From: Arenicola marina
Lineage: Eukaryota > Annelida > Polychaeta > Arenicolidae
DNA: 64,000 nt
Reading direction: 5' to 3'
Assembly: GCA_964019135.1 (NCBI GenBank)
Contig: OZ025255.1
Span: forward strand, 3,472,001-3,536,000
The notes under the pieces were generated by a model. That model searched no databases. It was not told where the DNA came from and worked only from the letters and a program-made list of their open reading frames with translations. Below are positions 1,195 to 64,000 of the stretch, in pieces (position 1 is the first letter of the stretch; each line of letters starts with the position of its first letter). Made by a program: the position numbers and the translations under genes.

Positions 1195-2458
1195 GTATCC
1201 CCCCCCCCCTGGCCCCCGCCCCCGGTGACTGACCACTTTGAAGTGAGAGAGGAGCTGCAGGATGCCGGGGGTGACGCGGGCCCAGGGTGTGGCTGGGGCC
1301 TGGTTGGGGTCCCCACGCCCCCCCCCCCCTGGCCCCCGCCCCCGGTGACTAACCACTTTGGAGTGTGAAAGGAGCTGCAGGATGCCGGGGGTGACGCGGC
1401 CCCAGGGTGTGGCTGGGGACTGGTGGGGGTCCCCCCACCCCCTGGGCCCCGCCCCCGGTGACTGACCACTTTGGAGTGAGAGAGGAGCTGCAGGATGCCG
1501 GGGGTGACGCGGCCCCAGGGTGTGGCTGGGGACTGGTGGGGGTCCCCCCCCCCTGGCCCCGCCCCCGATGACTGACCACTTTGGAGTGTGAGAGGAGCTG
1601 CAGGATGCCGGGGGTGACGCGGCCTCAGGGTGTGGCTGGGGACCGGTGGGGGTCCCCACGCCCCCCCCCCCTGGCCCCCGCCCCCGGTGACTGACCACTT
1701 TGGAGTGTGATAGGAGCTGCAGGATGCCGGGGGTGACGCGGCCCCAGGGTGTGGCTGGGGACTGGTGGGGGTCCCCCCCCCCTGGCCCCCGAGCCGGGTG
1801 ACTGACCACTTTGGAGTGAGAGAGGAGCTGCAGGATGCCGGGGGTGACGCGCCCCAGGGTGTGGCTGGGGACTGGTGGGGGTCCCCACGCCCCCCCCCCC
1901 CCTGGCCCCCGCCCCCGGTGACTGACCACTTTGGAGTGTGATAGGAGCTGCAGGATGCCGGGGGTGACGCGGCCCCAGGGTGTGGCTGGGGACTGGTGGG
2001 GGTCCCCCCACCCCCTGGCCCCCGCCCCCGGTGACTGACCACTTTGGAGTGAGAGAGGAGCTGCAGGATGCCGGGGGTGACGCGGGCCCAGGGTGTGGTT
2101 GGGGACTGGTGGGGGTCTCCCCTGCCCCCCTCCCTGGCCCCCGCCCCCGGTGACTGACCACTTTGGAGTGTGAGAGGAGCTGCAGGATGCCGGGGGTGAC
2201 GCGGCCCCAGGGTGTGGCTGGGGACTGGTGGGGGTCTCCCCTGCCCCCCTCCCTGGCCCCCGCCCCAGGGTGTGGCTGGGGACTGGTGGGGGTCCCCCCT
2301 GGCCCCCTCCCTGGCCCTCGCCCCCGGTGACTGACCACTTTGGAGTGAGAGAGGAGCTGCAGGATGCCGGGGGTGACGCGGCCCCAGGGTGTGGCTGGGG
2401 ACTGGTGGGGGTCCCCCCTGCACCCCCCCCCCACTGGCCCTCGCCCCCGGTGACTGAC
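1195..2458 (-). repeat. 113-120-bp GC-rich array copying the exon 12 end and donor
   Basis: Ten further copies of the block ctgcaggatgccgggggtga (near 1256, 1376, 1489, 1602, 1718, 1831, 1948, 2060, 2179 and 2355) repeat the last 50 or so bases of exon 12 and its donor GTCAGT. Each is followed in the RNA sense by G-rich sequence (runs of 5 to 11 G) and a linker ending CCACACCCTGGG. A truncated unit lacking the exon part lies near 2263-2300. All units keep the peptide RVTPGILQLLSHSK nearly intact, which fits array homogenisation rather than selection. Confidence 0.93.
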
Positions 2459-2599
2459 CACTTTGGAGTGTGAGAGGAGCTGCAGGATGCCGGGGGTGAC
2501 GCGGCCCCAGAAGTCCAGGATGGTGGTCTGGGCCAGCGCGCAGCTCTCACTGTGCGGCGGGCTCAGCGTGGCGAACGACTCGCAGTACATGGTCCACAG
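2459..2599 (-). CDS. UNC80: UNC80 exon 12 of window (141 bp, 47 codons)
   Basis: Reads LWTMYCESFATLSPPHSESC, ALAQTTILDFWGRVTPGILQ, then LLSHSKV. The vertebrate counterpart is LWTVYCEQ... to LEFWSRVTPSILQLMAHNKV. The acceptor TTCCTTCCAG lies before 2599, and the donor GTCAGT lies at 2458-2453. Both borders are phase 0. The terminal 50 or so bases (WGRVTPGILQLLSHSKV) with the donor are copied 10 more times in the array downstream. Read-through past the donor stays open in this frame to about 1625, giving a Gly/Pro/Arg-rich repetitive sequence that I regard as intronic. The remaining C-terminal coding sequence must lie beyond the left edge. Confidence 0.94.
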
Positions 2600-2605
2600 C
2601 TGGAA

Positions 2606-3036
2606 GGAACAGGTCAAGGGCATGAGACACAGGTCAAGGGCATGGCACACAGGTCAAGGGCATGAGACACAGGTCAAGAGCATGGCATACAGGTCAAGGG
2701 CATGGGACACAGGTCAAGGGCATCGGTCACAGGCCAAGGGCGTGGGACACAGGTCAAGGACATCGGACACAGGCCAAGGGTATGGAACACAAGACAAGGG
2801 CGTGGGACACAGGTCAAGGGCATCGGACACAGGTCAAGGGCATGAGACACAGGTCAAGGGCATGGCACACATGTCAAGGGCGTGGGACACAGGTCAAGGG
2901 CATGGAACGCAGGTCAAGGGCATGGAACACAGGTCAAGGGCATAGCACACATGTCAAGGCGTGGGACACAGGTCAAGGGCATGAAACACAGGTCAAGGGC
3001 ATAGGACACAAGTCAAGAGCATAGGACACTGGTCAT
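2606..3036. repeat. 20-bp minisatellite next to exon 12 acceptor
   Basis: About 21 copies of aggtcaagggcatgagacac (20 bp, plus strand), starting about 7 nt upstream of the exon 12 acceptor. It contributes part of the sequence in front of the pyrimidine tract but does not copy the AG or any exon base. One unit has a 1-bp deletion near 2959. Confidence 0.92.
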
Positions 3037-3039
3037 GGA

Positions 3040-3436
3040 TTAACCATACGGCCATTGCTGTAACCATGGCATTACCACAGGGCCACAGCTGTAACCATGG
3101 CATTACCACAGGGCCACAGCTGTAACCATGGCATTACCACAGGGCAATAGCTGTAACCATGGCATTAACTCGCGGCAACAGCTGTAACCATGGCATTACC
3201 ACACGGCAACAGCTGTAACCATGGCATTACCACAGGGCCACAGCTGTAACCATGGCATTACCACAGGGCCACAGCTGTAATCATGGCATTACCATACGGC
3301 AACAGCTGTAACCATGGCATTACCACACGGAAACAGCTGTAACCATGGCATTCCCACACGGCAACAGCTGTAACCATGGCATTCCCACACGGCAACAGCT
3401 GTAACCATGGCATTACAACATGGCCACAGCTGTAAC
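3040..3436. repeat. 31-bp minisatellite in the exon 11-12 intron
   Basis: About 13 copies of a 31-bp unit beginning taaccatggcattaccacag and ending ggccacagctg, with variants cggcaacagctg and cggaaacagctg. It is separated from exon 11 by about 150 bp of unique sequence (3437-3590). Confidence 0.92.
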
Positions 3437-3590
3437 TACGGCGCATCCACCTAGCAACATGAACGGTTGAGATGAAGAGAAACATTTTCGCCTCATAAAA
3501 CCTTGACTATAACTAAGAATTAAAGGATTTATATGTATGTTTATTCATTAGGTCGCCCAATACGACGAAAAGTGAGACACAAGACCTTAC

Positions 3591-3641
3591 CTGGCATAAG
3601 ATGAAGGCGTGAAACAGGGAGGACATGTGCAAGACAGAAGC
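3591..3641 (-). CDS. UNC80: UNC80 exon 11 of window (51 bp, 17 codons)
   Basis: A small exon reading ASVLHMSSLFHAFILCQ; vertebrate UNC80 has TSVLHMCSLFHAFIFAQ. The acceptor is strong (TTTTTGTTTCAG before 3641), and the donor GTAAGG lies at 3590-3585. Both borders are phase 0, so skipping it would remove 17 residues in frame. It is too short for a simple open-frame scan and was found from family order. The 41-bp array begins about 20 nt upstream of the acceptor without copying the exon. Confidence 0.94.
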
Positions 3642-3659
3642 CTGAAACAAAAACAGAAC

Positions 3660-5180
3660 GTTGACAGTGTGGCTCATGTCGCCATGTCACAACACGTTAG
3701 GGTGACAGTGTGGCTCATGTCGTCATGTCACAACACGTTAGGGTCACAGTGTGGCTCATGTCGTTATGTCACAACACGTTAGGGTGACAGTGTGGCTCAT
3801 GTCGTCATGTCACAACACGTTAGGGTGACAGTGTGGCTCATGTCGTCATGTCACAACACGTTAGGGTGACGGTGTGGCTCATGTCGTCATGTCACAACAC
3901 GTTAGAGTGACAGTGTGGCTCATGTCGTCATGCCACAACACGTTAGAGTGACAGTGTGGCTCATGTCGTCATGCCACAACACGTTAGAGTGACAGTGTGG
4001 CTCATGTCGTCATGTCACAACACGTTAGGGTGACGGTGTGGCTCATGTCGTCATGTCACAACACGTTAGGGTGACAGTGTGGCTCATGTCGTCATGCCAC
4101 AACACGTTAGAGTGACAGTGTGGCTCATGTCGTCATGTCACAACACGTTAGAGTGACAGTGTGGCTCATGTCGTCATGTCACAACACGTTAGGGTGACGG
4201 TGTGGCTCATGTCGTCATGTCACAACACGTTAGGGTGACAGTGTGGCTCATGTCGTCATGTCACAACACGTTAGGGTGACGGTGTGACTCATGTCGTCAT
4301 GTCACAACACGTTAGAGTGACAGTGTGGCTCATGTCGTCATGTCACAACACGTTAGGGTGACGGTGTGGCTCATGTCGTCATGTCACAACACGTTAGGGT
4401 GACAGTGTGGCTCATGTCGTCATGTCACAACACGTTAGGGTGACGGTGTGGCTCATGTCGTCATGCCACAACACGTTAGAGTGACAGTGTGGCTCATGTC
4501 GTTATGTCACAACACGTTAGGGTGACAGTGTGGCTCATGTCGTCATGTCACAACACGTTAGGGTGACAGTGTGGCTCATGTCGTCATGTCACAACACGTT
4601 AGAGTGACAGTGTGGCTCATGTCGTCATGTCACAACACGTTAGGGTGACAGTGTGGCTCATGTCGTCATGTCACAACACGTTAGAGTGACAGTGTGGCTC
4701 ATGTCGTCATGTCACAACACGTTAGAGTGACAGTGTGGCTCATGTCGTCATGTCACAACACGTTAGGGTGACAGTGTGGCTCATGTCGTCATGCCACAAC
4801 ACGTTAGGGTGACAGTGTGGCTCATGTCGTCATGTCACAACACGTTAGAGTGACAGTGTGGCTCATGTCGTCATGTCACAACACGTTAGAGTGACAGTGT
4901 GGCTCATGTCGTCATGTCACAACACGTTAGGGTGACGGTGTGGCTCATGTCGTCATGTCACAACACGTTAGGGTGACAGTGTGGCTCATGTCGTCATGCC
5001 ACAACACGTTAGAGTGACAGTGTGGCTCATGTCGTTATGTCACAACACGTTAGAGTGACAGTGTGGCTCATGTCGTCATGTCACAACACGTTAGGGTGAC
5101 AGTGTGGCTCATGTCGTCATGTCACAACACGTTAGAGTGACAGTGTGGCTCATGTCGTCATGTCACAACACGTTAGGGTG
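3660..5180. repeat. 41-bp minisatellite upstream of exon 11
   Basis: About 37 copies of a 41-bp unit (gtgacagtgtggctcatgtc, then gtcatgtcacaacacgttag, then g). It begins roughly 20 nt upstream of the exon 11 acceptor, just outside the pyrimidine tract. Units are highly uniform, with recurring single-base variants (gtgacggtg, cgttagag, catgccac) in patterns that suggest multi-unit duplication. Confidence 0.95.
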
Positions 5181-5214
5181 AGACTTAGATGTGTTATCAG
5201 GTATACGCTGTTTC

Positions 5215-5440: not shown

Positions 5441-8229
5441 GTTAGGAGGGGCTACACTACAGCAACATCGGCCCACTCCCCCACCCCACCCCCTACCTTG
5501 GAATAGGCCCACTCCCCCACCCACCCCCTACCTTGGAATAGGGGGTAAACTACAGCAACATCGGCCCACTCCCCCACCCCAACCCCTACCTTGGAATAGG
5601 GGCTACACTACAGCAACATCGGCCCACTCCCCCACCCCACCCCCTACCTTGGAATAGGGGCTACACTACAGCAACATCGGCCCACTCCCCCACCCCACCC
5701 CCTACCTTGGAATAGGGGCTACACTACAGCAACATCGGCCCACTCCCCAACCCCACCCCCTACCTTGGAATAGGCCCACTCCCCCACCCGACCCCCTACC
5801 TTGGAATAGGGGCTACACTACAGCAACATAGGCCCACTCCCCCACCCCACCCCCTACCTTGGAATAGGCCCACTCCCCAACCCCACCCCCTACCTTGGAA
5901 TAGGGGATACACTACAGCAACATCGGCCCACTCCCCCACCCCGCCCCCTACCTTGGAATAGGGGCTACACTACAGCAACATCGGCAAACTCCCCCACCCA
6001 CCCCCTACCTTGGAATAGGGGCTACACAACAGCAACATCGGCCCACTCCCCCACCCCACCCTCTACCTTGGAATAGGGGGTACACTACAGCAACATCGGC
6101 CCACTCCCCCACCCCACCCCCTACCTTGGAATAGGCCCACTCCCCCACCCACCCCCTACCTTGGAATAGGGGGTAAACTACAGCAACATCGGCCCACTCC
6201 CCCACCCCAACCCCTACCTTGGAATAGGGGCTACACTACAGCAACATCGGCCCACTCCCCCACCCCACCCCCTACCTTGGAATAGGGGCTACACTACAGC
6301 AACATCGGCCCACTCCCCCACCCCACCCCCTACCTTGGAATAGGGGCTACACTACAGCAACATCGGCCCACTCCCCAACCCCACCCCCTACCTTGGAATA
6401 GGCCCACTCCCCCACCCGACCCCCTACCTTGGAATAGGGGCTACACTACAGCAACATAGGCCCACTCCCCCACCCCACCCCCTACCTTGGAATAGGCCCA
6501 CTCCCCAACCCCACCCCCTACCTTGGAATAGGGGATACACTACAGCAACATCGGCCCACTCCCCCACCCCGCCCCCTACCTTGGAATAGGGGCTACACTA
6601 CAGCAACATCGGCAAACTCCCCCACCCACCCCCTACCTTGGAATAGGGGCTACACAACAGCAACATCGGCCCACTCCCCCACCCCACCCTCTACCTTGGA
6701 ATAGGGGGTACACTACAGCAACATAGGCCCACTCCCCCACCCCACCCCCTACCTTGGAATAGGCCCACTCCCCCACCCACCCCCTACCTTGGAATAGGGG
6801 GTAAACTACAGCAACATCGGCCCACTCCCCCACCCCAACCCCTACCTTGGAATAGGGGGTACACTACAGCAACATCGGCCCACTCCCCCACCCCACCCCC
6901 TACCTTGGAATAGGGGGTACACTACAGCAACATCGGCCCACTCCCCCACCCCACCCCCTGCCTTGGAATAGGGGGTACACTACAGCAACATCGGCCCACT
7001 CCCCCACCCCACCCCCTACCTTGGAATAGGCCCACTCCCCACCCACCCCCTACCTTGGAATAGGGGCTACACTACAGCAACATCGGCCCACTCCCCTACC
7101 CCACCCCCTACCTTGGAATAGGCCCACTCCCCACCCACCCCCGACCTTGGAATAGAGGGTACACTACAGCAACATCGGCCCACTCCCCCACCCCACCCCC
7201 TACCTTGGAATAGGGGCTACACTACAGCAACATCGGCCCACTCCCCCACCCCACCCCCTACCTTGGAATAGGCCCACTCCCCCACCCACCCCCTACCTTG
7301 GAATAGGGGGTACACTACAGCAACATCGGCCCACTCCCCAACCCCACCCCCTACCTTGGAAGAGGCCCACTCCCCCACCCCACCCCCTACCTTGGAATAG
7401 GGGCTACTCTACAGCAACATTGGCCCACTCCCCCACCCCACACCCTACCTTGGAATAGGGGCTACACTACAGCAACATCGGCCCACTCCCCCACCCCACC
7501 CCCTACCTTGGAATAGGCCCACTCCCCCACCCACCCCCTACCTTGGAATAGGCCCACTCCCCCACCCCACCCCCTACCTTGGAATAGGCCCACTCCCCAA
7601 CCCCACCCCCTACCTTGGAATAGGGGCTACACTACAGCAACATAGGCCCACTCCCCCACCCACCCCCTACCTTGGAATAGCGGCTACACTACAGCAACAT
7701 CGGCCCACTCCCCCACCCCACCCCCTACCTTGGAATAGGGGCTACACTACAGCAACATCGGCCCACTCCCCCACTCCACCCCCTACCTTGGAATAGGCCC
7801 ACTCCCCCACTCACCCCCTACCTTGGAATAGGGGGTACACTACAGCAACATCGGCCCACTCCCCCACCCCACCCCCTTCCTTGGAATAGGGGGTACACTA
7901 CAGCAACATCGGCCCACTCCCCCACCCCACCCCCTACCTTGGAATAGGGGGTACACTACAGCAACATCGGCCCACTCCCCCACCCCCTACCTTGGAATAG
8001 GCCCACTCCCCCACCCACCCCCTACCTTGGAATAGGGGGTACACTACAGCAACATCGGCCCACTCCCCCACCCCACCCCCTACCTTGGAATAGGGGGTAC
8101 ACTACAGCAACATCGGCCCACTCCCCCACCCCCTACCTTGGAATAGGCCCACTCCCCCACCCACCCCCTACCTTGGAATAGGGGGTACACTACAGCAACA
8201 TCGGCCCACTCCCCCACCCCACCCCCTAC
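5441..8229 (-). repeat. 58/35-bp G-rich array copying the exon 10 donor
   Basis: Two interleaved unit lengths occur: a 58-bp form (with ctacactacagcaacatcgg) and a short form of about 35 bp lacking that part. Each contains ctaccttggaatag, which in RNA sense is TTCCAAG followed by the donor GTAGGGGGTGGGG. I count about 54 copies besides the authentic one at 8230. The sequence after each donor is G-run rich. A few copies are mutated at the donor (gccttgg near 6959, ttccttgg near 7879). The array ends exactly at exon 10. Confidence 0.93.
5495..6750. repeat. 628-bp tandem duplication inside the 58/35-bp array
   Basis: The order of long, short and variant units at about 5495-6122 recurs at about 6123-6750 with an offset of 628 bp, including rare variants (cccgacccc, cataggcccac, cggcaaactc, cctctacc). 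The two blocks differ at only a few bases, so the second arose by duplication of many units at once. Confidence 0.8.
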
Positions 8230-8419
8230 CTTGGACTGCTCCGCGAAGCCCGTCATGATGACCATCACGTGATCAGCTATGTAGGACATGGCCTCCAGGG
8301 GGAGCGGCTGGCAGATCAGAGACGCCGCTGCCTTGGTGACGGCCGTGTGGGTCAGCGACCCCAGCAGTAGCCATGACAACAGGCGAATGTGGCTCACACA
8401 CTCCGTGAATTCCCTCGGT
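8230..8419 (-). CDS. UNC80: UNC80 exon 10 of window (190 bp)
   Basis: Reads PREFTECVSHIRLLSWLLLG, SLTHTAVTKAAASLICQPLP, LEAMSYIADHVMVIMTGFAE, then QSK. The segment CVSHIRLLSWLLLGSLTH is identical to my memory of vertebrate UNC80. The hydrophobic run is part of the helical scaffold rather than a proven membrane span. The acceptor is TTGTGTTTTCAG before 8419; the first base completes the Gly codon from exon 9. The donor is GTAGGG at 8229-8224, and the exon ends in phase 0. The exon's last six or so bases (TCCAAG) with the donor recur about 54 times downstream. The upstream intron is 19.4 kb. Confidence 0.95.
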
Positions 8420-8560: not shown

Positions 8561-11500
8561 GCATGTCTGTCTCACCCTTGTTGAAGGACGGGGTGGTAGA
8601 GCCAGGGCAGGTAGCGGCCTATGGCCCGCTGGTCCCGGCCCTAGGCCAACAGGGGACAGCACTCACCCTTGTTGAAGGAGAGGGTGGTAGAGCCAGGGCA
8701 GGTAGCGGCCTATGGCCCGCTGGTCCCGGCCCTAGGCCAACAGGGGACAGCACTCACCCTTGTTGCAAGACAGGGTGGTAGAGCCAGGGCAGGTAGCGGC
8801 CTATGGCCCGCTGGTCCCGGCCCTAGGCCAACAGGGGACATCACTCACCCTTGTTGAAGAACGGGGTGGTAGAGCCAGGGCAGGTAGCGGCCTATGGCCC
8901 GCTGGTCCCGGCCCTAGGCCAACAGGGGACAACACTCAACCTTGTTGAAGGACAGGGTGGTAGAGCCAGGGCAGGTAGCGGCCTATGGCCCGCTGGTCCC
9001 GGCCCTAGGCCAACAGGGGACAACACTCACCCTTGTTGAAGGACAGGGTGGTAGAGCCAGGGCAGGTAGCGGCCTATGGCCCGCTGGTCCCGGCCCTAGG
9101 CCAACAGGGGACAGCACTCACCCTTGTTGAAAGACGGGGTGGTAGAGTCAGGGCAGGTAGCGGCCTATGGCCCGCTGGTCCCGGCCCTAGGCCAACAGGG
9201 GACAACACTCACCCTTGTTGAAGGACAGGGTGGTAGAGCCAGGGCAGATAGCGGCCTATGGCCCGCTGGTCCCGGCACTAGGCCAACAGGGGACATCACT
9301 CACCCTTGTTGAAAGACGGGGTGGTAGAGCCAGGGCAGGTAGCGGCCTATGGCCCGCTGGTCCCGGCCCTAGGCCAACAGGGGACAGCACTCACCCTTGC
9401 TGAAGGACGGGGTGGTAGAGCCAGGGCAGGTAGCGGCCTATGGCCCGCTGGTCCCGGCCCTAGGCCAACAGGGGACAGCACTCACCCTTGCTGAAGGACA
9501 GGGTGGTAGAGCCAGGGCAGGTAGCAGGCTATGGCCCGCTGGTCCCGGCCCCCAGGCCAACAGGAGACAGCACTCACCCTTGTTGAAGGAGAGGGTGGTA
9601 GAGCCAGGGCAGGTAGCGGCCTATGGCCCGCTGGTCCCGGCCCTAGGCCAACAGGGGACAGCACTCATCCTTGTTGAAGGAGAGGGTGGTAGAGCCAGGG
9701 CAGGTAGCGGCCTATGGCCCGCTGGTCCCGGCCCTAGGCCAACAGAGGACAGCACTCACCCTTGCTGAAGGACAGGGTGGTAGAGCCAGGGCAGGTAGCG
9801 GCCTATGGCCCGCTGGTCCCGGCCCTAGGCCAACAGGGGACAACACTCACCCTTGTTGAAGGACGGGTTGTTAGAGCCAGGGCAGGTAGCGGCCTATGGC
9901 CCGCTGGTCCCGGCCCAAGGCCAACAGGGGACAGCACTCACCCTTGTTGAAGGACGGCGTGGTAGAGTCAGGGCAGGTAGCGGCCTATGGCCCGCTGGTC
10001 CTGGCCCTAGGCCAACAGGGGACAGCACTCACCCTTGTTGAAAGACGGGGTGGTAGAGCCAGGGCAGGTAGCGGCCTATGGCCCGCTGGTTCCGGCCCTA
10101 GGCCAACAGAGGACAGCACTCACCCTTGTTGAAGGACGAGGTGGTAGAGTCAGGGCAGGTAGCAGCCTATGGCCCGCTGGTCCCGGCCCCAGGCCAACAG
10201 GGGACAGCACTCACCCTTGTTGAAGGAGAGGGTGGTAGAGCCAGGGCAGGTAGCGGCCTATGGCCCGCTGGTCCCGGCCCTAGGCCAACAGGGGACATCA
10301 CTCACCCTTGTTGAAGAACGGGGTGGTAGAGCCAGGGCAGGTAGCGGCCTATGGCCCGCTGGTCCCGGCCCTAGGCCAACAGGGGACAGCACTCACCCTT
10401 GTTGAAGGACGGGGTGGTAGAGCCAGGGCAGGTAGCGGCCTATGGCCCGCTGGTCCCGGCCCTAGGCCAACAGGGGACAACACTCACCCTTGTTGAAGGA
10501 CGGGGTGGTAGAGTCAGGGCAGGTAGCGGCCTATGGCCCGCTGGTCCCGGCCCTAGGCCAACAGGGGACAACACTCAACCTTGTTGAAGGACAGGGTGGT
10601 AGAGCCAGGGCAGGTAGCGGCCTATGGCCCGCTGGTCCCGGCCCTAGGCCAACAGGGGACAACACTCATCCTTGTTGAAGGACGGGGTGGTAGAGCCAGG
10701 GCAGGTAGCGCCCTATGGCCCGCTGGTTCCGGCCCTAGGCCAACAGGGGACAGCACTCACCCTTGTTGAAGGACGGGGTGGTAGAGCCAGGGCAGGTAGC
10801 GGCCTATGGCCCGCTGGTCCCGGCCCTAGGCCAACAGGGGACAGCACTCACCCTTGCTGAAGGACGGGGTGGTAGAGCCAGGGCAGGTAGCGGCCTATGG
10901 CCCGCTGGTCCCGGCCCTAGGCCAACAGGGGACAGCACTCACCCTTGCTGAAGGACAGGGTGGTAGAGCCAGGGCAGGTAGCAGGCTATGGCCCGCTGGT
11001 CCCGGCCCCCAGGCCAACAGGAGACAGCACTCACCCTTGTTGAAGGAGAGGGTGGTAGAGCCAGGGCAGGTAGCGGCCTATGGCCCGCTGGTCCCGGCCC
11101 TAGGCCAACAGGGGACAGCACTCACCCTTGTTGAAGGAGAGGGTGGTAGAGCCAGGGCAGGTAGCGGCCTATGGCCCGCTGGTCGCGGCCCTAGGCCAAC
11201 AGGGGACAGCCCTCACCCTTGTTGAAGGACAGGGTGGTAGAGCCAGGGCAGGTAGCGGCCTATGGCCCGCTAGTCCCGGCCCTAGGCCAACAGGGGACAG
11301 CACTCACCCTTGTTGAAGGACGGGGTGGTAGAGCCAGGGCAGGTAGCGGCCTATGGCCCGCTGGTCCCGGCCCTAGGCCAACAGGGGACAGCACTCACCC
11401 TTGTTGAAGGACGGCGTGGTAGAGTCAGGGCAGGTAGCGGCCTATGGCCCGCTGGTCCTGGCCCTAGGCCAACAGGGGACAGCACTCACCCTTGTTGAAA

Positions 11501-38475: not shown

Positions 38476-38489
38476 AGGTGGTTCCTTAC

Positions 38490-38594
38490 CTGCACCAGCA
38501 GTACCAGGTTCTCGTCAGGGAGAGTCGTCTTGAACTTGAGGGCCTGCATCAACTCAAACACGATGCTGCGAGACAGGAAGAGCCGGTCTCTCTC
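38490..38594 (-). CDS. UNC80: UNC80 exon 7 of window (105 bp, 35 codons)
   Basis: Reads ERDRLFLSRSIVFELMQALK, then FKTTLPDENLVLLVQ. Vertebrate UNC80 has ERDKFYLSRSVVLELLQALK at this point (from memory), a near residue-for-residue match. The acceptor is GTACTTTAG before 38594, with a modest pyrimidine tract. The donor is GTAAGG at 38489-38484. Both borders are phase 0. The exon is isolated: 17.7 kb of intron lies upstream and 9.9 kb downstream, both nearly pure repeat. Confidence 0.95.
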
Positions 38595-38599
38595 CTAAA

Positions 38600-54800: not shown

Positions 54801-56265
54801 CAGTGGGGGAGATCAGACTGGTACAACACAGTGTGAGAGGTAAGAATGGTACAACACACAGTGTGAGAGGTCAGACTGGTACAACACACAGTGGGGGAGG
54901 TCAGACTGGTACAACACACACTGGGAGATGTCAGACTGGTACAACACACAGTGGGAGAGGTCAGACTGGTACAACACACAGTGGGAGAGGTCAGACTGGT
55001 ACAACACAGTGTGAGAGGTCAGACTGGTACAACACAGTGTGAGACTCAGACTGGTACAACACACAGTGGGGGAGATCAGACTGGTACAACACAGTGTGAG
55101 AGGTCAGAATGGTACAACACACAGTGTGAGAGGTCAGACTGGTACAACACACAGTGTGAGAGGTCAGACTAGTACAATACACAGTGTGAGAGGTCAGACT
55201 GGTACAACACACAGTGTGAGAGGTCAGACTGGTACAACACTGTGAGAGGTCAGACTGGTACAACACAGTGTGAGAGGTCAGACTGGTACAACACACAGTG
55301 GGAGAGGTCAGACTGGTACAACACACAGTGTGAGAGGTCAGACTGGTACAACACAGTGTGAGAGGTCAGACTGGTACAACACAGTGGGAGAGGTCAGAAT
55401 GGTACAACACACAGTGTGAGAGGTCAGAATGGTACAACACACAGTGGGAGAGATCAGACTGGTACAACACACAGTGGGAGAGATCAGACTGGTACAACAC
55501 ACAGTGGGAGAGATCAGACTGGTACAACACACAGTGTGAGAGGTCAGACTGGTACAACACACAGTGTGAGAGGTCAGAATGGTACAACACACAGTGGGAG
55601 AGGTCAGAATGGCACAACACAGTGCGAGAGGTCAGACTGGTACTACACACAGTGGGAGAGATCAGACTGGTACAACACACAGTGGGAGAGATCAGACTGG
55701 TACAACACACCGTGGGAGAGATCAGACTGGTACAACACACAGTGGGAGAGATCAGACTGGTACAACACACAGTGGGAGAGATCAGACTGGTACAACACAC
55801 AGTGGGAGAGGTCAGACCGGTAGAACGCAGTGTGAGAGGTCAGAATGGTACAACACACAGTGGGACAGGTCAGACTGGTACAACACAGTGTGAGAGGTCA
55901 GACTGGTACAACACACAGTGGGAGAGATCAGACTGGTACAACACACAGTGGGAGAGATCAGACTGGTACAACACACAGTGGGAGAGATCAGACTGGTACA
56001 ACACACAGTGGGAGAGATCAGACTGGTACAACACACAGTGGGAGAGATCAGACTGGTACAACACACAGTGGGAGAGATCAGACTGGTACAACACACAGTG
56101 GGAGAGATCAGACTGGTACAACACACAGTGGGAGAGATCAGACTGGTACAACACACAGTGGGAGAGATCAGACTGGTACAACACACAGTGGGAGAGGTCA
56201 GACTGGTACAACACACAGTATGAGAGGTCAGACTGGTACAACACACAGTATGAGAGGTCAGAGGG
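51820..56265. repeat. 30-bp minisatellite, segment 3 of the exon 6-7 intron
   Basis: About 148 copies. Blocks here match segment 2 with an offset of 7,884 bp (for example 44387 and 52271, 45873 and 53757) and, further right, 6,998 bp (48360 and 55358). The change of offset reflects an 886-bp block present once more in segment 2. It ends with a run of about 11 gggagagatcag units and stops about 10 nt from the exon 6 donor region (56274). Confidence 0.93.
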
Positions 56266-56274
56266 GTCACCCAC

Positions 56275-56385
56275 CTTGCTGAATCCCCGGCTACACAGTG
56301 AACACACGTCTAGAATCTGCTGCAGCTTGAAGGAACAGTTCTGTATCGTGAAGGTGACCAGCTTGGAGAAAGGCTCCAGGATACC
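56275..56385 (-). CDS. UNC80: UNC80 exon 6 of window (111 bp, 37 codons)
   Basis: Reads GILEPFSKLVTFTIQNCSFK, then LQQILDVCSLCSRGFSK. The vertebrate counterpart is LLEPFSKLLSFVIQN followed by a cysteine-containing helix and R.FTK, which fixes the frame. The acceptor TATTGTAG lies before 56385, and the donor GTGGGT lies at 56274-56269. Both ends are phase 0. Three further copies of the acceptor and the exon's first 24 or so bases lie upstream. The 30-bp array begins about 16 nt after the donor, so this donor faces a 17.7-kb repeat intron. Confidence 0.94.
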
Positions 56386-56545
56386 CTACAATACAGAGTC
56401 AATACAGTGATAACTTGGAGAAAGGCTCCAGGATATCGTACAATACAGTCAATACAGTGATAACTTGGAGAAAGGCTCCAGGATACCCTACAATACAGAG
56501 TCAATACAGTGATAACTTGCAGAAAGGCTCCAGGATACCTTACAA
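56386..56545 (-). repeat. 50-52-bp mini-array copying the exon 6 acceptor and start
   Basis: Three extra copies after the authentic one, at 52-, 50- and 52-bp spacing. In RNA sense each holds TATTGTAG plus GGTATCCTGGAGCCTTTCTC. One copy (near 56433) reads TGTACG in place of TGTAG and so has lost its AG. Another (near 56535) reads TGTAAGGTATCC. It is the smallest splice-site-bearing array here. The rest of the 298-bp intron (56546-56683) is unique and AT-rich. Confidence 0.92.
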
Positions 56546-56683
56546 TACAGACTTGAAGTTCAAAACGGTCAAAGCAATATCGATCTATAAGTCTATTTTT
56601 GATGTTGAGTATCCCGCTATTGTATGGTTAAATATCTTCATTAAAATCGCTTGTGGATTTAATGCCTGTAACTAATACGTTAC

Positions 56684-56923
56684 CTTCACGGAGGTAATGC
56701 CCGGTATCTTCAGCACCGCAGTCATTATCTTCAGCACGGGGCCCATGTCGCACGGGTTGGGAAGTAGTCCCGGCAACCGGCGGAAGAACATGTCGAACTG
56801 CGGAAGGATATTGCTCCAGACGGGTGACGGGGTCTCCAGGGCGATGTAGTCCAGGTAGGAGGCCAGGTTGACGGAGATGTTCACGGCCTGGTCGCTGCTC
56901 AGGGTCTTCAGCCCGTTGAGGCC
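56684..56923 (-). CDS. UNC80: UNC80 exon 5 of window (240 bp, 80 codons)
   Basis: Reads GLNGLKTLSSDQAVNISVNL, ASYLDYIALETPSPVWSNIL, PQFDMFFRRLPGLLPNPCDM, then GPVLKIMTAVLKIPGITSVK. It corresponds to the UNC80 segment that ends in a KIP motif before the EPFSKL block. The many amphipathic helices fit the helical scaffold expected for this region. The acceptor is CTCGCTAG before 56923, and the donor GTAACG lies at 56683-56678. Both borders are phase 0. A 17-bp array lies about 10 bp upstream of the acceptor, but it does not copy the splice site or exon. Confidence 0.93.
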
Positions 56924-56931
56924 CTAGCGAG

Positions 56932-57356
56932 GAGAGACGTGGTCAGGGGTGATACGAGGTCAGCGGTGACACGAGGTCAGCGGTGACACGAGTTCAGCGG
57001 TGACACGTGGTCAGCGGTGACGCGTGGTCAGCGGTGACACTTGGTCAACTGTGACACGTGGTCAACTGTGACACGTGGTCAGCGGGGACACGTGGTCAGC
57101 GGTGACACGTGGTCAACGGTGACACGTGGTCAGCGGGGACACGTGGTCAGTGGGGACACGTGGTCAGCGGTGACACTTGGTCAACTGTGACACGTGGTCA
57201 ACTGTGACACGTGGTCAGTGGGGACACGTGGTCAGCTGTGACACGTGGTCAGCGGTGACACGTGGTCAGCGGGGACACGTGGTCAGCGGGGACACGTGGT
57301 CAGCGGTGACACGTGGTCAGCGGTGACACGTGGTCAGCGGTGACACGTGGTCATCT
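56932..57356. repeat. 17-bp minisatellite upstream of exon 5
   Basis: About 25 copies of ggtcagcggtgacacgt (17 bp) with variants actgtgac and agcggggac. It begins about 10 nt upstream of the exon 5 acceptor and contains no AG acceptor or exon copy. Confidence 0.93.
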
Positions 57357-57688
57357 GTGACAAGTGGCCACGGTATGGTAGAGGGAGCGCACCATCTAAT
57401 GGGGTCTGCCCCTCAGGCTCATTACAGTATTTCAATCATCGTCAAAGCCCAGACACTATTTTCTGGATGTGACAATCAGTGCAACAGACAATGTTGCTTT
57501 CGAAAGGTGTTAATCAGTTAATCAGATAATGTTATTATCGGGAGGTGTCAATCAGCGCAGCAGACAATGTCATTTTCGAAAGGTGTCAATTAGTCAATCA
57601 GATAATGTTACGCGTTGGCGTGTTTTGACGCATTCACCAGATGGCGCCTACAACGGTACATTCTACACACTTCTGTAGGAATACTGAC
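57357..57688. other. Mostly unique intron sequence after exon 4
   Basis: Contains a short old repeat between 57475 and 57612 (two or three diverged copies around gtcaatcagataatgtta and cagacaatgt). Otherwise it is unremarkable. It ends at the exon 4 donor GTCAGT. Confidence 0.65.
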
Positions 57689-57774
57689 CTCCAGTAACAG
57701 CTGCAGGGCCGAGTAACAGTTGAGGTCGGCGAAGTCCACCAGCGAGCAGGCCATGGTCTTCAGAAAGTCAGGGT
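57689..57774 (-). CDS. UNC80: UNC80 exon 4 of window (86 bp)
   Basis: Reads DPDFLKTMACSLVDFADLNC, then YSALQLLLE. Joined to exon 3 the junction is FMTELD-DPDFLKTMACSL, the same length as the vertebrate segment, which supports both borders. The acceptor is CTGTCCCTGCAG before 57774 and the donor is GTCAGT at 57688-57683. It begins with two bases of a split codon and ends in phase 0. The acceptor plus the first 25-27 bases of the exon are repeated 36 times upstream in a 58-bp array. The copy nearest the body of the exon is chosen because only it continues into coding sequence. Confidence 0.93.
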
Positions 57775-59875
57775 CTGCAGGGACAGACACAGCATTGTTA
57801 CTGACAGGCCATGGTCTTCAGAAAGTCAGGGTCTGTAGGGACAGACACAGCATTGTTACTGACAGGCCATGGTCTTCAGGAAGTCAGGGTCTGTAGGGAC
57901 AGACACAGCATTGTTACTGACAGGCCATGGTCTTCAGAAAGTCAGGGTCTGTAGGGACAGACACAGCATTGTTACTGACAGGCCATGGTCTTCAGGAAGT
58001 CAGGGTCTGTAGGGACAGACACAGCATTGTTACTGACAGGCCATGGTCTTCAGAAAGTCAGGGTCTGCAGGGACAGACACAGCATTGTTACTGACAGGCC
58101 ATGGTCTTCAGAAAGTCAGGGTCTGTAGGGACAGACACAGCATTGTTACTGACAGGCCATGGTCTTCAGGAAGTCAAGGTCTGTAGGGACAGACACAGCA
58201 TTGTTACTGACAGGCCATGGTCTTCAGAAAGTCAGGGTCTGCAGGGACAGACACAGCATTGTTACTGACAGGCCATAGTCTTCAGGAAGTCAGGGTCTGC
58301 AGGGACAGACACAGCATTGTTACTGACAGGCCATGGTCTTCAGGAAGTCAGGGTCTGCAGGGACAGACACAGCATTGTTACTGACAGGCCATAGTCTTCA
58401 GAAAGTCAGGGTCTGCAGGGACAGACACAGCATTGTTACTGACAGGCCATGGTCTTCAGGAAGTCAGGATCTGCAGGGACAGACACAGCATTGTTACTGA
58501 CAGGCCATGGTCTTCAGAAAGTCAGGGTCTGCAGGGACAGACACAGCATTGTTACTGACAGGCCATGGTCTTCAGAAAGTCAGGGTCTGCAGGGACAGAC
58601 ACAGCATTGTTACTGACAGGCCATGGTCTTTAGGAAGTCAGGGTCTGCAGGGACAGACACAGCATTGTTACTGACAGGCCATGGTCTTCAGAAAGTCAGG
58701 GTCTGTAGGGACAGACACAGCATTGTTACTGACAGGCCATGGTCTTCAGGAAGCCAGCGTCTGTAGGGACAGACACAGCATTGTTACTGACAGGCCATGG
58801 TCTTCAGGAAGTCAGGGTCTGCAGGGACAGACACAGTATTGTTACTGACAGGCCATGATCTTCAGGAAGTCAGGGTCTGCAGGGACAGACACAGCATTGT
58901 TACTGACAGGCCATGGTCTTCAGAAATTCAGGGTCTGTAGGGACAGACACAGCATTGTTACTGACAGGCCATGGTCTTCAGAAAGTCAGGGTCTGCAGGG
59001 ACAGACACAGCATTGTTACTGACAGGCCATAGTCTTCAGGAAGTCAGGGTCTGCAGGGACAGACACAGCATTGTTACTGACAGGCCATGGTCTTCAGGAA
59101 GTCAGGGTCTGCAGGGACAGACACAGCATTGTTACTGACAGGCCATGGTCTTCAGGAAGTCAGGGTCTGCAGGGACAGACACAGCATTGTTACTGACAGG
59201 CCATGGTCTTCAGAAAGTCAGGGTCTGCAGGGACAGACACAGCATTGTTACTGACAGGCCATAGTCTTCAGGAAGTCAGGGTCTGCAGGGACAGACACAG
59301 CATTGTTACTGACAGGCCATGGTCTTCAGGAAGTCAGGGTCTGCAGGGACAGACACAGCATTGTTACTGACAGGCCATGGTCTTCAGGAAGTCAGGGTCT
59401 GCAGGGACAGACACAGCATTGTTACTGACAGGCCATGGTCTTCAGAAAGTCAGGGTCTGCAGGGACAGACACAGCATTGTTACTGACAGGCCATGGTCTT
59501 CAGGAAGTCAGGGTCTGCAGGGACAGACACAGCATTGTTACTGACAGGCCATGGTCTTCAGAAAGTCAGGGTCTGTAGGGACAGACACAGCATTGTTACT
59601 GACAGGCCATGGTCTTCAGGAAGCCAGCGTCTGTAGGGACAGACACAGCATTGCTACTGACAGGCCATGGTCTTCAGGAAGTCGGGGTCTGCAGGGACAG
59701 ACACAGTATTGTTACTGACAGGCCATGATCTTCAGGAAGTCAGGGTCTGCAGGGACAGACACAGCATTGTTACTGACAGGCCATGGTCTTCAGGAAGTCA
59801 GGGTCTGTAGGGACAGACACAGCATTGTTACTGACAGGCCATGGTCTTCAGGAAGTCAGGGTCTGTAGGGACAGA
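57775..59875 (-). repeat. 58-bp array, 36 extra copies of exon 4 acceptor and start
   Basis: In RNA sense each unit is CTGTGTCTGTCCCTGCAG (acceptor), ACCCTGACTTCCTGAAGACC ATGGCC (exon 4 start, encoding PDFLKTMA), then TGTCAGTAACAATG. The span from 57773 to 59861 is exactly 36 periods. Most copies keep the tract and AG (GCAG or ACAG). The TGTCAGTAA after the exon copy is donor-like, so each unit also looks like a 27-nt microexon. The array joins the 56-bp array with only about 30 bp between them. Confidence 0.95.
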
Positions 59876-59894
59876 CGCTGCACACATGGTAACT

Positions 59895-61318
59895 AGTCAT
59901 ACAGATCTAGCCATACACCGTCCAGTTCTGTCATAAAGAGCTGTAACAAGGTGAATACAGATCTAGCCACACACCATCCAATTCTGTCATAAAGAGCTGT
60001 GACAAGGTGAATACAGATCTAGCCACACACCGTCCAATTCTGTCATAAAGAGCTGTGGGGAAATTAATACAGAGCAAGCCACACACCGTCCAGTTCTGTC
60101 ATAAAGAGCTGTGGCAAGATGAATACAGAACTAGCCACACACCGTCCAGTTCTGTCATAAAGAGCTGTGGCAAGATGAATACAGAGCTAGCCACACACCG
60201 TCCAGTTCTGTCATAAAGAGCTGTGGCAAGATGAATACAGAGCTAGCCACACACCGTCCAGTTCTGTCATAAAGAGCTGTGGCAAGATGAATACAGAGCT
60301 AACCACACACCGTCCAGTTCTGTCATAAAGAGCTGTGGCAAGATGAATACAGAGCTAACCACACACCGTCCAGTTCTGTCATAAAGAGCTGTGGCAAGAT
60401 AAATACAGATCTAGCCACACACCGTCCAATTCTGTCATAAAGAGCTGTGGGGAAATTAATACAGAGCTAGCCACACACCGTCCAGTTCTGTCATAAAGAG
60501 CTGTGGCAAGATGAATACAGAACTAGCCACACACCGTCCAGTTCTGTCATAAAGAGCTGTGGCAAGATGAATACAGAGCTAACCACACACCGTCCAGTTC
60601 TGTCATAAAGAGCTGTGGCAAGATAAATACAGATCTAGCCACACACCGTCCAATTCTGTCATAAAGAGCTGTGGGGAAATTAATACAGAGCAAGCCACAC
60701 ACCGTCCAGTTCTGTCATAAAGAGCTGTGGCAAGATGAATACAGAGCTAGCCACACACCGTCCATTTCTGTCATAAAGAGCTGTGGCAAGATGAATACAG
60801 AGCTAACCACACACCGTCCAGTTCTGTCATAAAGAGCTGTGGCAAGATGAATACAGAGCTAGCCACACACCGTCTAGTTCTGTCATAAAGAGCTGTGGCA
60901 AGATGAATACAGAGCTAGCCACACACCGTCCAGTTCTGTCATAAAGAGCTGTGGCAAGATGAATACAGAGCTAGCCACACACCGTCCATTTCTGTCATAA
61001 AGAGCTGTGGCAAGATGAATACAGAGCTAACCACACACCGTCCAGTTCTGTCATAAAGAGCTGTGGCAAGATGAATACAGAGCTAGCCACACACCGTCTA
61101 GTTCTGTCATAAAGAGCTGTGGCAAGATGAATACAGAGCTAGCCACACACCGTCTAGTTCTGTCATAAAGAGCTGTGGCAAGATGAATACAGAGCTAGCC
61201 ACACACCGTCTAGTTCTGTCATAAAGAGCTGTGGCAAGATGAATACAGAGCTAGCCACACACCGTCCAGTTCTGTCATAAAGAGCTGTGGGAAGATGAAT
61301 ACAGAGCTAGCCACACAC
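59895..61318 (-). repeat. 56-bp array, 25 extra copies of exon 3 end and donor
   Basis: In RNA sense each unit holds CCACAGCTCTTTATGACAGA ACTGGACG (exon 3 end, QLFMTELD) followed by donor GTGTGTGG and CTAGCTCTGTATTCATCTTG. The span from 59911 to 61311 is exactly 25 periods. Variants include gaaattaatacag units and ctagttctg units. Read-through from exon 3 meets an in-frame TGA within the first repeat. Confidence 0.95.
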
Positions 61319-61437
61319 CGTCCAATTCTGTCATAAAGAGCTGTGGGAAGATTCCGTTTGGCGCCATCTGGTGGAGAGTGCAGCGCAGGAACTGTCTCGC
61401 CACGCTGACACTATTCCCCGGAATAATCAGCCCGGTT
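61319..61437 (-). CDS. UNC80: UNC80 exon 3 of window (119 bp)
   Basis: Reads TGLIIPGNSVSVARQFLRC, then TLHQMAPNGIFPQLFMTELD. Vertebrate UNC80 has the same pattern (PGN..., A.QFLRC, HQ.APNGIFPQLF), recalled from memory. The acceptor is TTCTTTCAG before 61437. The donor is GTGTGT at 61318-61313, after GGACG; the final G joins AC of exon 4 to make Asp. The last 28 or so bases of this exon, with the donor, are copied 25 more times in the adjoining 56-bp array. The authentic copy has a silent difference (TTG for the array's usual CTG in TELD). Confidence 0.93.
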
Positions 61438-61974
61438 CTGAAAGAATATAGGAAGACATGGGTCCGGTGCTATCAGAAGGTCACTTGTTGTCATACCCTT
61501 TGCCCAGCAAGTAGACACAGTTGCTCGATATAACACCTCAATTCTCAGCTTATTGATCTTCGTCTACAGCCTTTTGGCCTTGGTTACCAATCACCGCTTT
61601 CATAACTGTTTATATTCAGCACCGATGATCGGAGAACGCTGTGCAATATATCAAGATAAAAACTATGAAGTGGTTTGTGACCAGTTTGACGCAATGACTG
61701 AAGCGATCTGATGCCCCGTGACCACATGACGAGTGCAGTAGCAGGGTGACTTACACTTCGGCCTGCCATGGGTAGGGCGTGCTGGCGGCAATCCTGTCAG
61801 GGGGAAGGGGGTGGCAGGTTAGTCCACAGGCAACGTAACACAACATAGTCATCAATGTCTCATATTGCTGTAGCCAGTCCTGGATGTACAGCGCTCTGTC
61901 TATAGTGTGTACCTTACAGAACCAACTTTAATATCGCTTTGATTATTTATCCATGAATTAAGAGATTGGTGCGG
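61438..61974. other. Unique intron sequence upstream of exon 3
   Basis: About 540 bp with no tandem array and no coding similarity I can recognise. It contains the exon 3 acceptor tract (RNA sense ATATTCTTTCAG) at its low-coordinate end. Confidence 0.7.
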
Positions 61975-62503
61975 GAGGAGGGGGGGGGGGGCTGGAGGCG
62001 GGCCTATGGGCGGGGACTGGGGCGGGGCCTGGGGGCGGGCCTGTGGGCGGGGCCTGAGACTGGGGGCGGGCCTGGGGGCGGGCTTGGAGGCGGGCCTGTA
62101 GGCGGGTCTGTAGGCGGGCCTGTAGGCGGGCCTGTAGGCGGGGCCTGGGACTAGGCTTGGGCCTGGGGGCGGGACCTGGGACTGTGCTTGGGGCGGGGGG
62201 CAGGCTCGGAGGCGGGGCGGGGGGCAGGCTCGGAGGCGGGCCTGGAGGCGGGCCTGGGGGCGGGCCTGAGGGCGGACCTGAGGGCGGGCCTGGGGGCGGA
62301 ACTGGAGGCGGGACTGGGGCGGTCCTGTGGGCGGGGCCTGGGGAGGGCCGGGGGCGGGGCCTGGGGCGGGGCTTTGAGACGGGCTTGGAGGCGGGCCTGT
62401 GGGCGTGGGCCTGCAGGCGGGGCCTGGGACTGGGCCTAGGCCGGGCCCTGGGGCGGGCCCTGGGGCGGGCCCTGGGGCGGGCTTGGAGACGGGCCTGAGG
62501 GCG
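61975..62503. repeat. GC-rich degenerate repeat after exon 2 donor
   Basis: Irregular 8-17-bp repeats built from ggcgggcctg, ggcggggcctg and ggcgggcttgg. It starts within about 5 nt of the exon 2 donor. G-rich on the plus strand (the template) and C-rich in the RNA. Long Pro/Gly-rich open frames on both strands are compositional. It does not copy exon 2. Confidence 0.9.
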
Positions 62504-62511
62504 GGGCTGAC

Positions 62512-62760
62512 CTGGCCACTGTCTGGAGCATGTCCAGGAGGAGCGGAGCGGCGAGGGCGGACTCTCGGTGGATGAAGGTGGCCAGACACACGATGGCCAG
62601 GCTGATGGTGTCCTCATCATACTGCTCCAGCACGGAGTTGCAGTCCGGACAGCGGTCCACCAGGATCTGCTCCGTGGCCCTGAGGGCCGCCATGGACCGC
62701 TTGGCGGACGAGCTCCCGTGCGACGACTTGCTCGCCAACTCAGAGCGGCGCGACTTCCGA
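62512..62760 (-). CDS. UNC80: UNC80 exon 2 of window (249 bp)
   Basis: Encodes a basic/serine segment (SRKSRRSELASKSSHGSSSA) followed by the most recognisable UNC80 block here: MAALRATEQILVDRCPDCN, SVLEQYDEDTISLAIVCLAT, then FIHRESALAAPLLLDMLQTV. The two cysteines of DRCPDC and the acidic YDED are typical of the family as I remember it, where they are followed by a long helical stretch. The acceptor is TTTTTCAG before 62760. The donor is GTCAGC at 62511-62506, directly followed by the GC-rich array. The preceding intron is only 100 bp (62761-62860), the shortest in the window and free of repeats. The exon starts with the third base of a serine codon and ends after two bases of an arginine codon. 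Confidence 0.95.
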
Positions 62761-62860
62761 CTGAAAAATGGTGAACAGTGGAGCGGTGTAACGGCTGCAA
62801 GACCCAATGGGCGATTAATGTGTATATGAAAGTACGTTAAATACCAAAGGCGAGACTGAC

Positions 62861-63035
62861 CTTGAAGTGGGTGACCTTGACCGATCTGAGCCCAGGCTGA
62901 GGTCACGCAGCTCTGGGATGACCTTCTGTAGTTCGATGGTGGTAAGTCCCGTCTTCCGCTGCTTGCGCTGTCTGTACTGAGGCTTCATGCGGGGGTGCGG
63001 GCCCGGGCTGACACAGGGACTCTCGTCCAGCTCAC
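62861..63035 (-). CDS. UNC80: UNC80 exon 1 of window (175 bp)
   Basis: The exon reads ELDESPCVSPGPHPR, then MKPQYRQRKQRKTGL, then TTIELQKVIPELRDLSLG, then a serine/arginine-rich tail (SDRSRSPTS). The basic run and the TTIELQKVIPELRDLSL helix look like a linker feeding into the next conserved block. The donor GTCAGT at 62860-62855 is preferred over a weaker GTCACC 15 bp upstream; both keep frame and differ by five codons (RSPTS region). The acceptor is TGTAG before 63035. The exon starts with two bases of a split codon and ends with two. The 5' edge is uncertain, because the first 22 or so bases and the acceptor are repeated upstream every 54 bp in the same frame, so a longer exon would also be open. 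Confidence 0.82.
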
Positions 63036-64000
63036 CTACAGTACACAGTGCCATTACAGTCATACAGCAGGGACTCTCGTCCAGCTCACCTACAGCACAC
63101 AGTGTCATTACAGTCATACAGCAGAGACTCTCGTCCAGCTCACCTACAGTACACAGTGCCATTACAGTCATACAGCAGGGACTCTCGTCCAGCTCACCTA
63201 CAGTACACAGTGTCATTACAGTCATACAGCAGGGACTCTCGTCCAGCTCACCTACAGTACACAGTGTCATTACAGTCATACAGCAGGGACTCTCGTCCAG
63301 CTCACCTACAGCACACAGTGCCACTACAGTCATACAGCAGAGACTCTCGTCCAGCTCACCTACAGTACACAGTGCCATTACAGTCATACAGCAGGGACTC
63401 TCGTCCAGCTCACCTACAGTACACAGTGCCATTACAGTCATACAGCAGGGACTCTCGTCCAGCTCACCTACAGTACACAGTGTCATTACAGTCATACAGC
63501 AGGGACTCTCGTCCAGCTCACCTACAGTACACAGTGTCATTACAGTCATACAGCAGGGACTCTCGTCCAGCTCACCTACAGCACACAGTGCCACTACAGT
63601 CATACAGCAGAGACTCTCGTCCAGCTCACCTACAGTACACAGTGCCACTACAGTTATACAGCAGGGACTCTCGTCCAGCTCACCTACAGTACACAGTGCC
63701 ATTACAGTCATACAGCAGGGACTCTCGTCCAGCTCACCTACAACACACAGTGCCACTACAGTCATACAGCAGGGACTCTCGTCCAGCTCACCTACAGCAC
63801 ACAGTGCCATTACAGTCATACATCAGGGACTCTCGTCCAGCTCACCTACAGTACACAGTGCCATTACAGTCATACAGCAGGGACTCTCGTCCAGCTCACC
63901 TACAGTACACAGTGCCACTACAGTCATACAGCAGAGACTCTCGTCCAGCTCACCTACAGTACACAGTGCCATTACAGTCATACAGCAGGGACTCTCGTCC
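63036..64000 (-). repeat. 54-bp array, 17 extra copies of exon 1 acceptor and start
   Basis: In RNA sense each unit reads GAGAGTCCCTGCTGTATGAC, TGTAATGGCACTGTGTACTG, TAG, then GTGAGCTGGAC. Thus TGTAG|GTGAGCTGGACGAG (exon 1 start) recurs every 54 bp, a multiple of three. In the exon 1 frame each unit encodes VGELDESPCCMTVMALCT and remains open to about 63820, where one unit (ccctgatg) has a TGA. The array continues beyond the right edge of the window. Confidence 0.94.

Follow-up and report, generated by a model that had tools for sequence, protein, structure and literature searches.

The UNC79 gene and its exon-border arrays

The window analyzed here (the whole stretch of 64,000 nucleotides [nt], contig C8:3472001-3536000, from a genome assembly of 867,369,267 bases in 762 contigs) carries the 3' half of UNC79, which encodes a partner of the NALCN channel, and eight of the 26 exon borders of this gene in the window lie inside tandem arrays. 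Thirteen exons on the minus strand, all 39 to 249 nt long and bounded by GT-AG, join into one UNC79 frame of 613 amino acids. A 539-residue query typed from these exons retrieved three unc-79 sequences from the PDB (best E value 2.3e-173, over residues 9 to 539); UNC80, the identity that was considered first, was dropped because the PDB match was to unc-79. The initial annotation had described the other exons, but it counted 12 of them: it overlooked the 39-nt E3 (61755-61793; reading frame and unc-79 homology), and its numbers from 3 onward are therefore one too low. The UNC79 part of the window gave no Pfam match at E<=0.001, and no Rfam family reached its gathering score. Judged from our exon map and from matches to Owenia UNC79, the whole gene spans at least C8:3463369-3804455, or 341 kilobases (kb); 19 of the 769 first-look candidates for Owenia UNC79 matches in the genome were scored, and all 19 scored matches fell on C8.

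Four of the repeated borders are donors and four are acceptors, and each lies in an array on the minus strand whose unit straddles the border. The E4 donor (exon at 61319-61437) sits in array A18 (59899-61352; 26 units of 56 base pairs [bp]) and has 25 extra copies; the E10 donor (27781-27953) sits in A10 (8571-27845; 212 units of 91 bp) and has 211; the E11 donor (8230-8419) sits in A8 (5443-8236; 58- and 36-bp units, with 7 nt of exon in the unit) and has 54; and the E13 donor (2459-2599) sits in A3 (1199-2510; unit of about 119 bp) and has 10. Among the acceptors, that of E1 (62882-63035) lies in A20 (63014-64000; 18 units of 54 bp, continuing past the window end) with 17 extra copies, that of E5 (57689-57774) in A17 (57747-59876; 37 units of 58 bp) with 36, that of E7 (56275-56385) in A14 (56362-56551; 52-bp unit) with 3, and that of E9 (28430-28612) in A11 (28563-38196; 97 units of 99 bp) with 96. 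At E9 the probe alone gives 120 copies, some of them out of register, and we used 96 because the 97 units include the authentic one. The total is thus 452 look-alike splice sites, defined by a 24-base border probe at no more than 30% mismatch; GT or AG is intact in 416 of them, and the exact core (an identical 9-mer donor or 15-mer acceptor) is present in 320. The initial annotation's eight repeated borders and roughly 450 decoys agree with our counts to within one.

No decoy is broken at E1, E4, E5, or E13, where 17, 25, 36, and 10 copies are intact. Elsewhere, 180 copies are intact at E10, where the first intron base (the G of GT) is lost in 31 of 211; 52 at E11 (2 of 54 broken); 95 at E9 (1 of 96 broken); and 1 at E7, where 2 of 3 have no AG. 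The remaining 18 of the 26 borders have no probe look-alike in the window, save one isolated match to the E13 acceptor. These include both borders of E2 (62512-62760; frame, GT-AG, and unc-79 homology) and of E6 (56684-56923), E8 (38490-38594), and E12 (3591-3641), each of which is placed by frame and GT-AG.

The arrays do not share a common sequence. An all-versus-all comparison of the consensus units of 16 of the 20 arrays (A2, A7, A9, and A16 were left out) returned no similarity at E<0.01, which upholds the initial annotation's argument that unrelated arrays point to a repeated process rather than to a single spreading repeat. Within A10 (8571-27845) there is a higher-order repeat of 67 units, or 6.1 kb. 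Units 67 apart in this array have a mean similarity of 97.1% and are identical in 45.5% of pairs, 79 distinct units are found among the 212, and, in this E10 array alone, unit divergence from the rest is 0.207 at the distal end and 0.048 on the exon side, with a mean of 0.053. The end of E10 (window 27781-27840, YLPWLYHPVLQQG) is two residues shorter than in homologs. An anchor motif was found there in 73 of 122 proteins, 61 of which read QQG; from the residue after H up to G, the window has six residues and these 61 homologs have eight or nine. The shortening falls within the array unit.

The introns of this gene are made almost wholly of arrays. The 12 complete introns total 58,736 nt; with arrays and the two copies of an inserted element taken away, unique sequence comes to 1,892 nt, with 22 nt in intron 4, 35 in intron 7, 14 in intron 8, and 86 in intron 10. 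Intron 4 consists of A17 and A18 apart from the 22 nt between them, and in intron 8 A11 is in direct contact with A12 (38195-38475; 40-bp unit), which ends 14 nt from the E8 donor. Other intronic arrays also come close to exons: A4 (20 bp) and A5 (31 bp) occupy 2609-3436, with A4 9 nt from the E13 acceptor; A6 (3662-5181; 41 bp) lies 20 nt from the E12 acceptor; A15 (56937-57367; 17 bp) lies 13 nt from the E6 acceptor; and the GC-rich A19 (61982-62509; 12-, 24-, or 36-bp unit) lies 2 nt from the E2 donor. With each array collapsed to one unit, introns measure 65 to 476 nt. A13 (38618-56262; 30 bp) fills intron 7 and is broken by the two element copies, each of 2.64 kb (41354-43996 and 49174-51819) and 99.77% identical to one another. 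The element has terminal inverted repeats and an apparent CAG target duplication, two of its open reading frames had no Pfam match at E<=0.001, and its second copy seems to stem from a tandem duplication of about 7.8 kb that took in element and array together.

Splice sites among their decoys

We take the innermost copy, the one nearest the exon body, as the authentic site at all eight borders. At E4, E5, E7, E9, E10, and E11 both sides of the junction are modeled and align to unc-79 without insertion, which indicates the form that the normal protein should take; E1 and E13 stand at the ends of the model, where the authentic site is set by the frame and by one side. Use of a decoy would bring in a stop codon in every case at E4 (25/25), E10 (211/211), E5 (36/36), and E7 (3/3), in 51 of 54 cases at E11, and in 82 of 96 at E9; at E13 a stop would follow in 4 of 10 cases and a frameshift in 7 of 10. 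Over all eight borders, 31 of the 452 decoys are open and in frame (14/17 at E1, 14/96 at E9, 2/10 at E13, and 1/54 at E11), and the rest lead to a stop or a frameshift.

The E1 acceptor is the least certain of the eight because protein conservation is poor where it lies and because its repeat is open in frame bar one stop. Here the array might be a coding repeat of 18 residues rather than a run of decoy acceptors: the 54-bp unit can be read through in the frame of E1, and the 14 open decoys would add in-frame residues without a stop. Set against this are the stop in one of the 18 copies, the scant conservation of the region in Owenia and Liolophura UNC79, and our own estimate that a random 18-codon unit would be open in a given frame about four times in ten. 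We regard a coding repeat at E1 as unlikely.

How the innermost copy might be chosen can be narrowed by asking what simple rules would select. Pairing for the shortest intron would choose wrongly, since the outermost decoys give far shorter introns: 56, 144, 333, 156, and 1,855 nt for introns 4, 6, 8, 10, and 11, against 3,544, 298, 9,877, 19,361, and 4,588 nt with the authentic sites. Choice of the first-transcribed site would be right for donors and wrong for acceptors. Pairing across the exon, over 39 to 249 nt, gives the right site for donors and acceptors alike, which argues for exon definition. The initial annotation's splicing system that tolerates decoys is a fair inference, and exon definition would be the likeliest reason for that tolerance.

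The decoys themselves carry no sign of selection on their splice signals: across seven arrays (E7 left out), GT/AG positions have 5 variant alleles, against 5.5 for random neighboring pairs. This bears directly on whether the decoys could be functional, either as a reserve of splice sites or as way stations for stepwise (recursive) or regulated splicing of long introns through array copies. The retention of GT or AG in 416 of 452 copies would suit such a role, as would the open frame of the E1 repeat bar its single stop, and the E1 unit, CTGTAG|GTGAGC, does place an acceptor directly before a donor-like sequence. Against it, variation at the GT/AG positions matches that at other positions of the unit, and 31 of the 211 copies at E10 are broken. 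We consider functional decoys very improbable.

Recurrence and origin of the border arrays

Border arrays are not confined to the window. Using Capitella UNC79 as a guide, we mapped 17 further introns upstream (18 junctions were solved, one of them dropped for a poor score; five wide gaps were passed over, and one junction had no solution). Over the resulting 29 UNC79 introns, look-alikes lie within the intron at 18 of 58 borders, 669 in total and 595 intact, with E9 counted here at 120; when the window's E13 donor and E1 acceptor are added, the borders come to 20 of 60. The upstream part contributes 12 of 34 borders, and eight or more look-alikes occur at 14 borders, 5 in the window and 9 upstream. 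As a control, 100 random 24-mers were taken from outside arrays; 18 of them had one or more look-alikes within 20 kb, and borders with few look-alikes (2, 2, 3, and 5) are therefore weak singly.

A second gene shows the same structure. On contig C19, the donor of a voltage-gated calcium channel alpha-1 exon (E value 7e-21) ending in FTIEMVLK lies in a 54-bp array of 98 units, 95 of them with GT, which makes 97 extra donor copies; 43 of the units are distinct. Nine kilobases away, another exon match with a provisional border, which probably belongs to this gene as well, lies next to a 41-bp array holding 11 copies of a donor-like stretch. In the piece fetched for another ion-channel gene on C8 (19 kb, 5.5% array), no array lies within 150 nt of its eight PF00520 matches, and on C5 two matches in 2.4 kb are free of any array. 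Long minisatellites nonetheless seem common in this genome: ten 3-kb pieces taken at round-number places average 24% array, two of them all array and the others 0 to 27%, against 91% array in the 264 kb around UNC79. The two all-array pieces consist of 29-bp or 51-bp arrays, and a 34-bp array of at least 110 kb (C8:3606068-3716000) lies between UNC79 exon matches placed at 3605.9 kb and at 3803.2 kb. Border arrays therefore recur, unevenly, among the handful of genes sampled.

Recurrence also speaks to whether the assembler made the long arrays or their copy numbers. The nearly identical 2.64-kb pair within its apparent 7.8-kb duplication and the 67-unit repeat are products of the type that an assembler might generate. 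Against an artefact stand the differences among units (79 distinct of 212 in the E10 array and 43 of 98 in the calcium-channel array), the presence of border arrays on two contigs (C8 and C19), and the habit of assemblers, which usually collapse repeats rather than invent them. We judge an assembly origin extremely unlikely.

The initial annotation had proposed a mechanism that seeds duplications at exon borders. Our placement tests do not demonstrate one. With introns collapsed and arrays placed at random, 6 of 16 arrays in the window straddle a border against 7.4 expected, and over the 29 UNC79 introns 16 of 39 straddle against 13.7 expected (P 0.23). Window arrays were set by hand and upstream arrays by script; the script applied to both gives 15 of 40 against 13.9. 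A comparison that needs no intron length sets arrays that straddle (cross a border by at least 5 nt) against those that abut (end less than one unit short of it): the counts are 16 and 15, with 14.5 straddles expected. The fraction of the unit that is exonic fits a uniform spread (Kolmogorov-Smirnov p 0.45, n=8). Most of the overlap can thus arise without border seeding. Arrays wholly inside an exon number 0 of 16, against 4.7 expected (P 0.0034). A search of border-abutting arrays for decayed remnants of border-spanning units, in eight comparisons, gave as its best case A13 against the E8 acceptor, at 6 of 500 shuffles, which is unconvincing for eight tests.

The explanation that we favor, at a probability of roughly 55% for the whole, begins with introns that would have been short ancestrally, in which minisatellites were repeatedly born by tandem duplication and then grew by slippage, unequal exchange, and larger block duplications. 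Since the ancestral introns (65 to 476 nt when collapsed) would have been hardly longer than the units (17 to 99 nt), many seed duplications would have overlapped a border by chance. Duplications wholly within exons would have been purged, and those across a border would have been tolerated, since the right mRNA can still be made from the copy closest to the exon body. The spliceosome would most likely pick that innermost copy by exon definition, given that all 13 exons measure 39 to 249 nt, and the decoys themselves would be without function.

Several observations weigh against this explanation. The outcome of random placement hinges on the collapsed intron length and on the rule for counting straddles: at 1.5 times the collapsed length P falls to 0.016, introns set at 315 nt (the median of six array-free introns) give 9.2 expected straddles and P 0.008, and present-day intron lengths give 2.5 and a P of almost zero. 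The upstream introns alone have 10 of 23 straddling arrays against 7.0 expected (P 0.08). A looser count, which adds two upstream borders with probe look-alikes where the array called by Tandem Repeats Finder ends short or overlaps by 4 nt, raises the straddling arrays to 18 of the 39 (13.7 expected, P 0.06); in the upstream introns they become 12 of 23, where 7.0 are expected (P 0.0075). Intron 4 holds, at the thresholds used, 219 pairs of an acceptor-like followed by a donor-like site, so the layout of the decoys does not preclude pseudo-exons. Something regional also plays a part, since UNC79 and a portion of the calcium-channel gene are rich in arrays and the other ion-channel gene is not. 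Finally, exon-derived decoy sequence varies more at third codon positions (33/88) than elsewhere (42/183), an excess that pure noncoding drift does not predict; stratified permutation gives P values of 0.0044, 0.004, and 0.024 for this post hoc test, which was chosen after seeing the data, and among exon-derived decoy variants 30 of 85 are synonymous against 26.5% expected (p 0.08).

The first of these observations are those that border seeding would explain. It holds that tandem duplication is favored by the exon-intron junction as such, whether by way of splicing-coupled R-loops, breaks, short AG-GT homologies, or the like, so that arrays are commoner there than elsewhere. It would account for the excess over chance that appears with ancestral introns of some 300 nt or more, for the looser upstream count, for the 27 of 39 arrays that end within one unit of a border, and for recurrence in the calcium-channel gene. 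It sits poorly with the lack of excess for collapsed introns in the window and, by the first count, overall (P 0.06 by the looser one), with a ratio of straddling to abutting arrays that is not clearly raised (16:15, or about 18:14 by the looser count, p 0.19), and with an exon overhang spread over the whole unit. We hold border seeding to be possible, if somewhat unlikely.

The third-position excess suggests a past under coding constraint that the decoys have in common with the working exon edge, whether they were copied from it repeatedly or exchanged sequence with it. A broader reading would be that in this lineage the borders of many genes are recycled time and again through growing arrays, the working edge exchanging with tens to hundreds of decoys; that arrays can drive coding changes at the ends of exons, the two residues absent from E10 being an example; and that splicing at such borders needs strict exon definition. 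So broad a claim is speculative, and we think it quite unlikely to hold.

Phylogenetic affinity, known systems, and meaning

The UNC79 of the window is, by its position in the tree, annelid and no deuterostome. Of the 240 proteins found, 43 were compared by identity: Capitella stands at 67.6%, Owenia at 65.6%, nemerteans at 62 to 63%, and deuterostomes at 47 to 55%, these being the named proteins, and two metagenome proteins reach 72% over about 320 to 340 residues. In a maximum likelihood tree of 39 rows, the window groups with Capitella and the two metagenome proteins at support 100/99 and with Capitella alone at 84/62, Owenia falling outside that group. Forcing the window into the deuterostomes is 59 log units worse (approximately unbiased [AU] test, p 0.00027), and the test does not reject a grouping of the window with the two annelids and the two metagenome rows (AU p 0.41). 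An amphioxus or deuterostome origin is rejected on this tree and the AU test, amphioxus itself having no row among the 39.

The structure has been described from amphioxus. Its "mirages" are minisatellites whose unit spans an exon-intron border in the Adh3, globin (BflGb6 and BflGb9), troponin C, and PGBD5 genes. They are reported to leave regular mRNA and to be unstable in length, and copy numbers, in the passages of these reports that we drew on, are 3 or 6 units in BflGb6 and 2 to 7 in PGBD5 (PMC3087553, PMC3902484). The initial annotation's reference to amphioxus exon-border minisatellites as a precedent was apt, the structure in those passages being the same. In both, the unit spans the border (8 of 26 in the window), either type of border is hit, many copies keep the splice signal (416 of 452 here), and unit length differs, between genes in amphioxus and between arrays here (PMC3087553, PMC3902484). 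The differences are of lineage and scale: UNC79 here groups with annelids and not with a cephalochordate, one gene has 8 of 26 window borders plus 9 upstream borders of at least 8 copies, and a border has up to 211 extra copies, against the 2 to 7 given in those passages for amphioxus globin and PGBD5 (PMC3087553, PMC3902484). We file the window as a case of the amphioxus mirage kind, in another phylum and at a much larger scale.

Other systems share parts of the pattern. In human UBC, according to the portion of the report used here, one dual-specific AGGT site acts both as a donor and as an acceptor, and intron length equals a whole number of units (PMC10809524). The window is like it in that splice signals are multiplied by tandem duplication of a unit, and unlike it in that in none of the 12 complete introns do the authentic donor and acceptor fall within a single array. 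The gigantic introns of Drosophila hold simple satellites and are not known to carry exon-border units. They are described as filled with satellites (PMC6508621) and, to that extent, are likewise swollen by tandem DNA. Tandem repeats at exon-intron boundaries have been linked with intron gain in human segmental duplications (PMC2812944), where they average four units of 30 bp in the text consulted, and in potato (PMC4974935); in both cases, as there described, tandem duplication takes place at or across splice signals. The closest annelid parallel is earthworm metallothionein, with large tandem arrays inside the first intron and, in one clone, fourth-exon duplications that are not in the final transcript (PMC12783039). 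Those duplications may be related to border arrays, and a border-spanning unit is not described in the part of that report used here (PMC12783039). Among the matches listed in the open-access literature, we found no earlier case of exon-border arrays in annelids.

Minisatellites at exon borders, described from a few amphioxus genes, are with this finding extended to a spiralian, on the other side of the deepest split among most bilaterians, and their copy numbers here far exceed those in the amphioxus passages (PMC3087553, PMC3902484). If introns are short, much border overlap is to be expected without any special seeding. The arrays also amount to a natural experiment on splice-site choice, in which identical signals are present tens to hundreds of times and the correct one is apparently the innermost. 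Borders of this kind can separate exon definition from intron definition and from transcription order.

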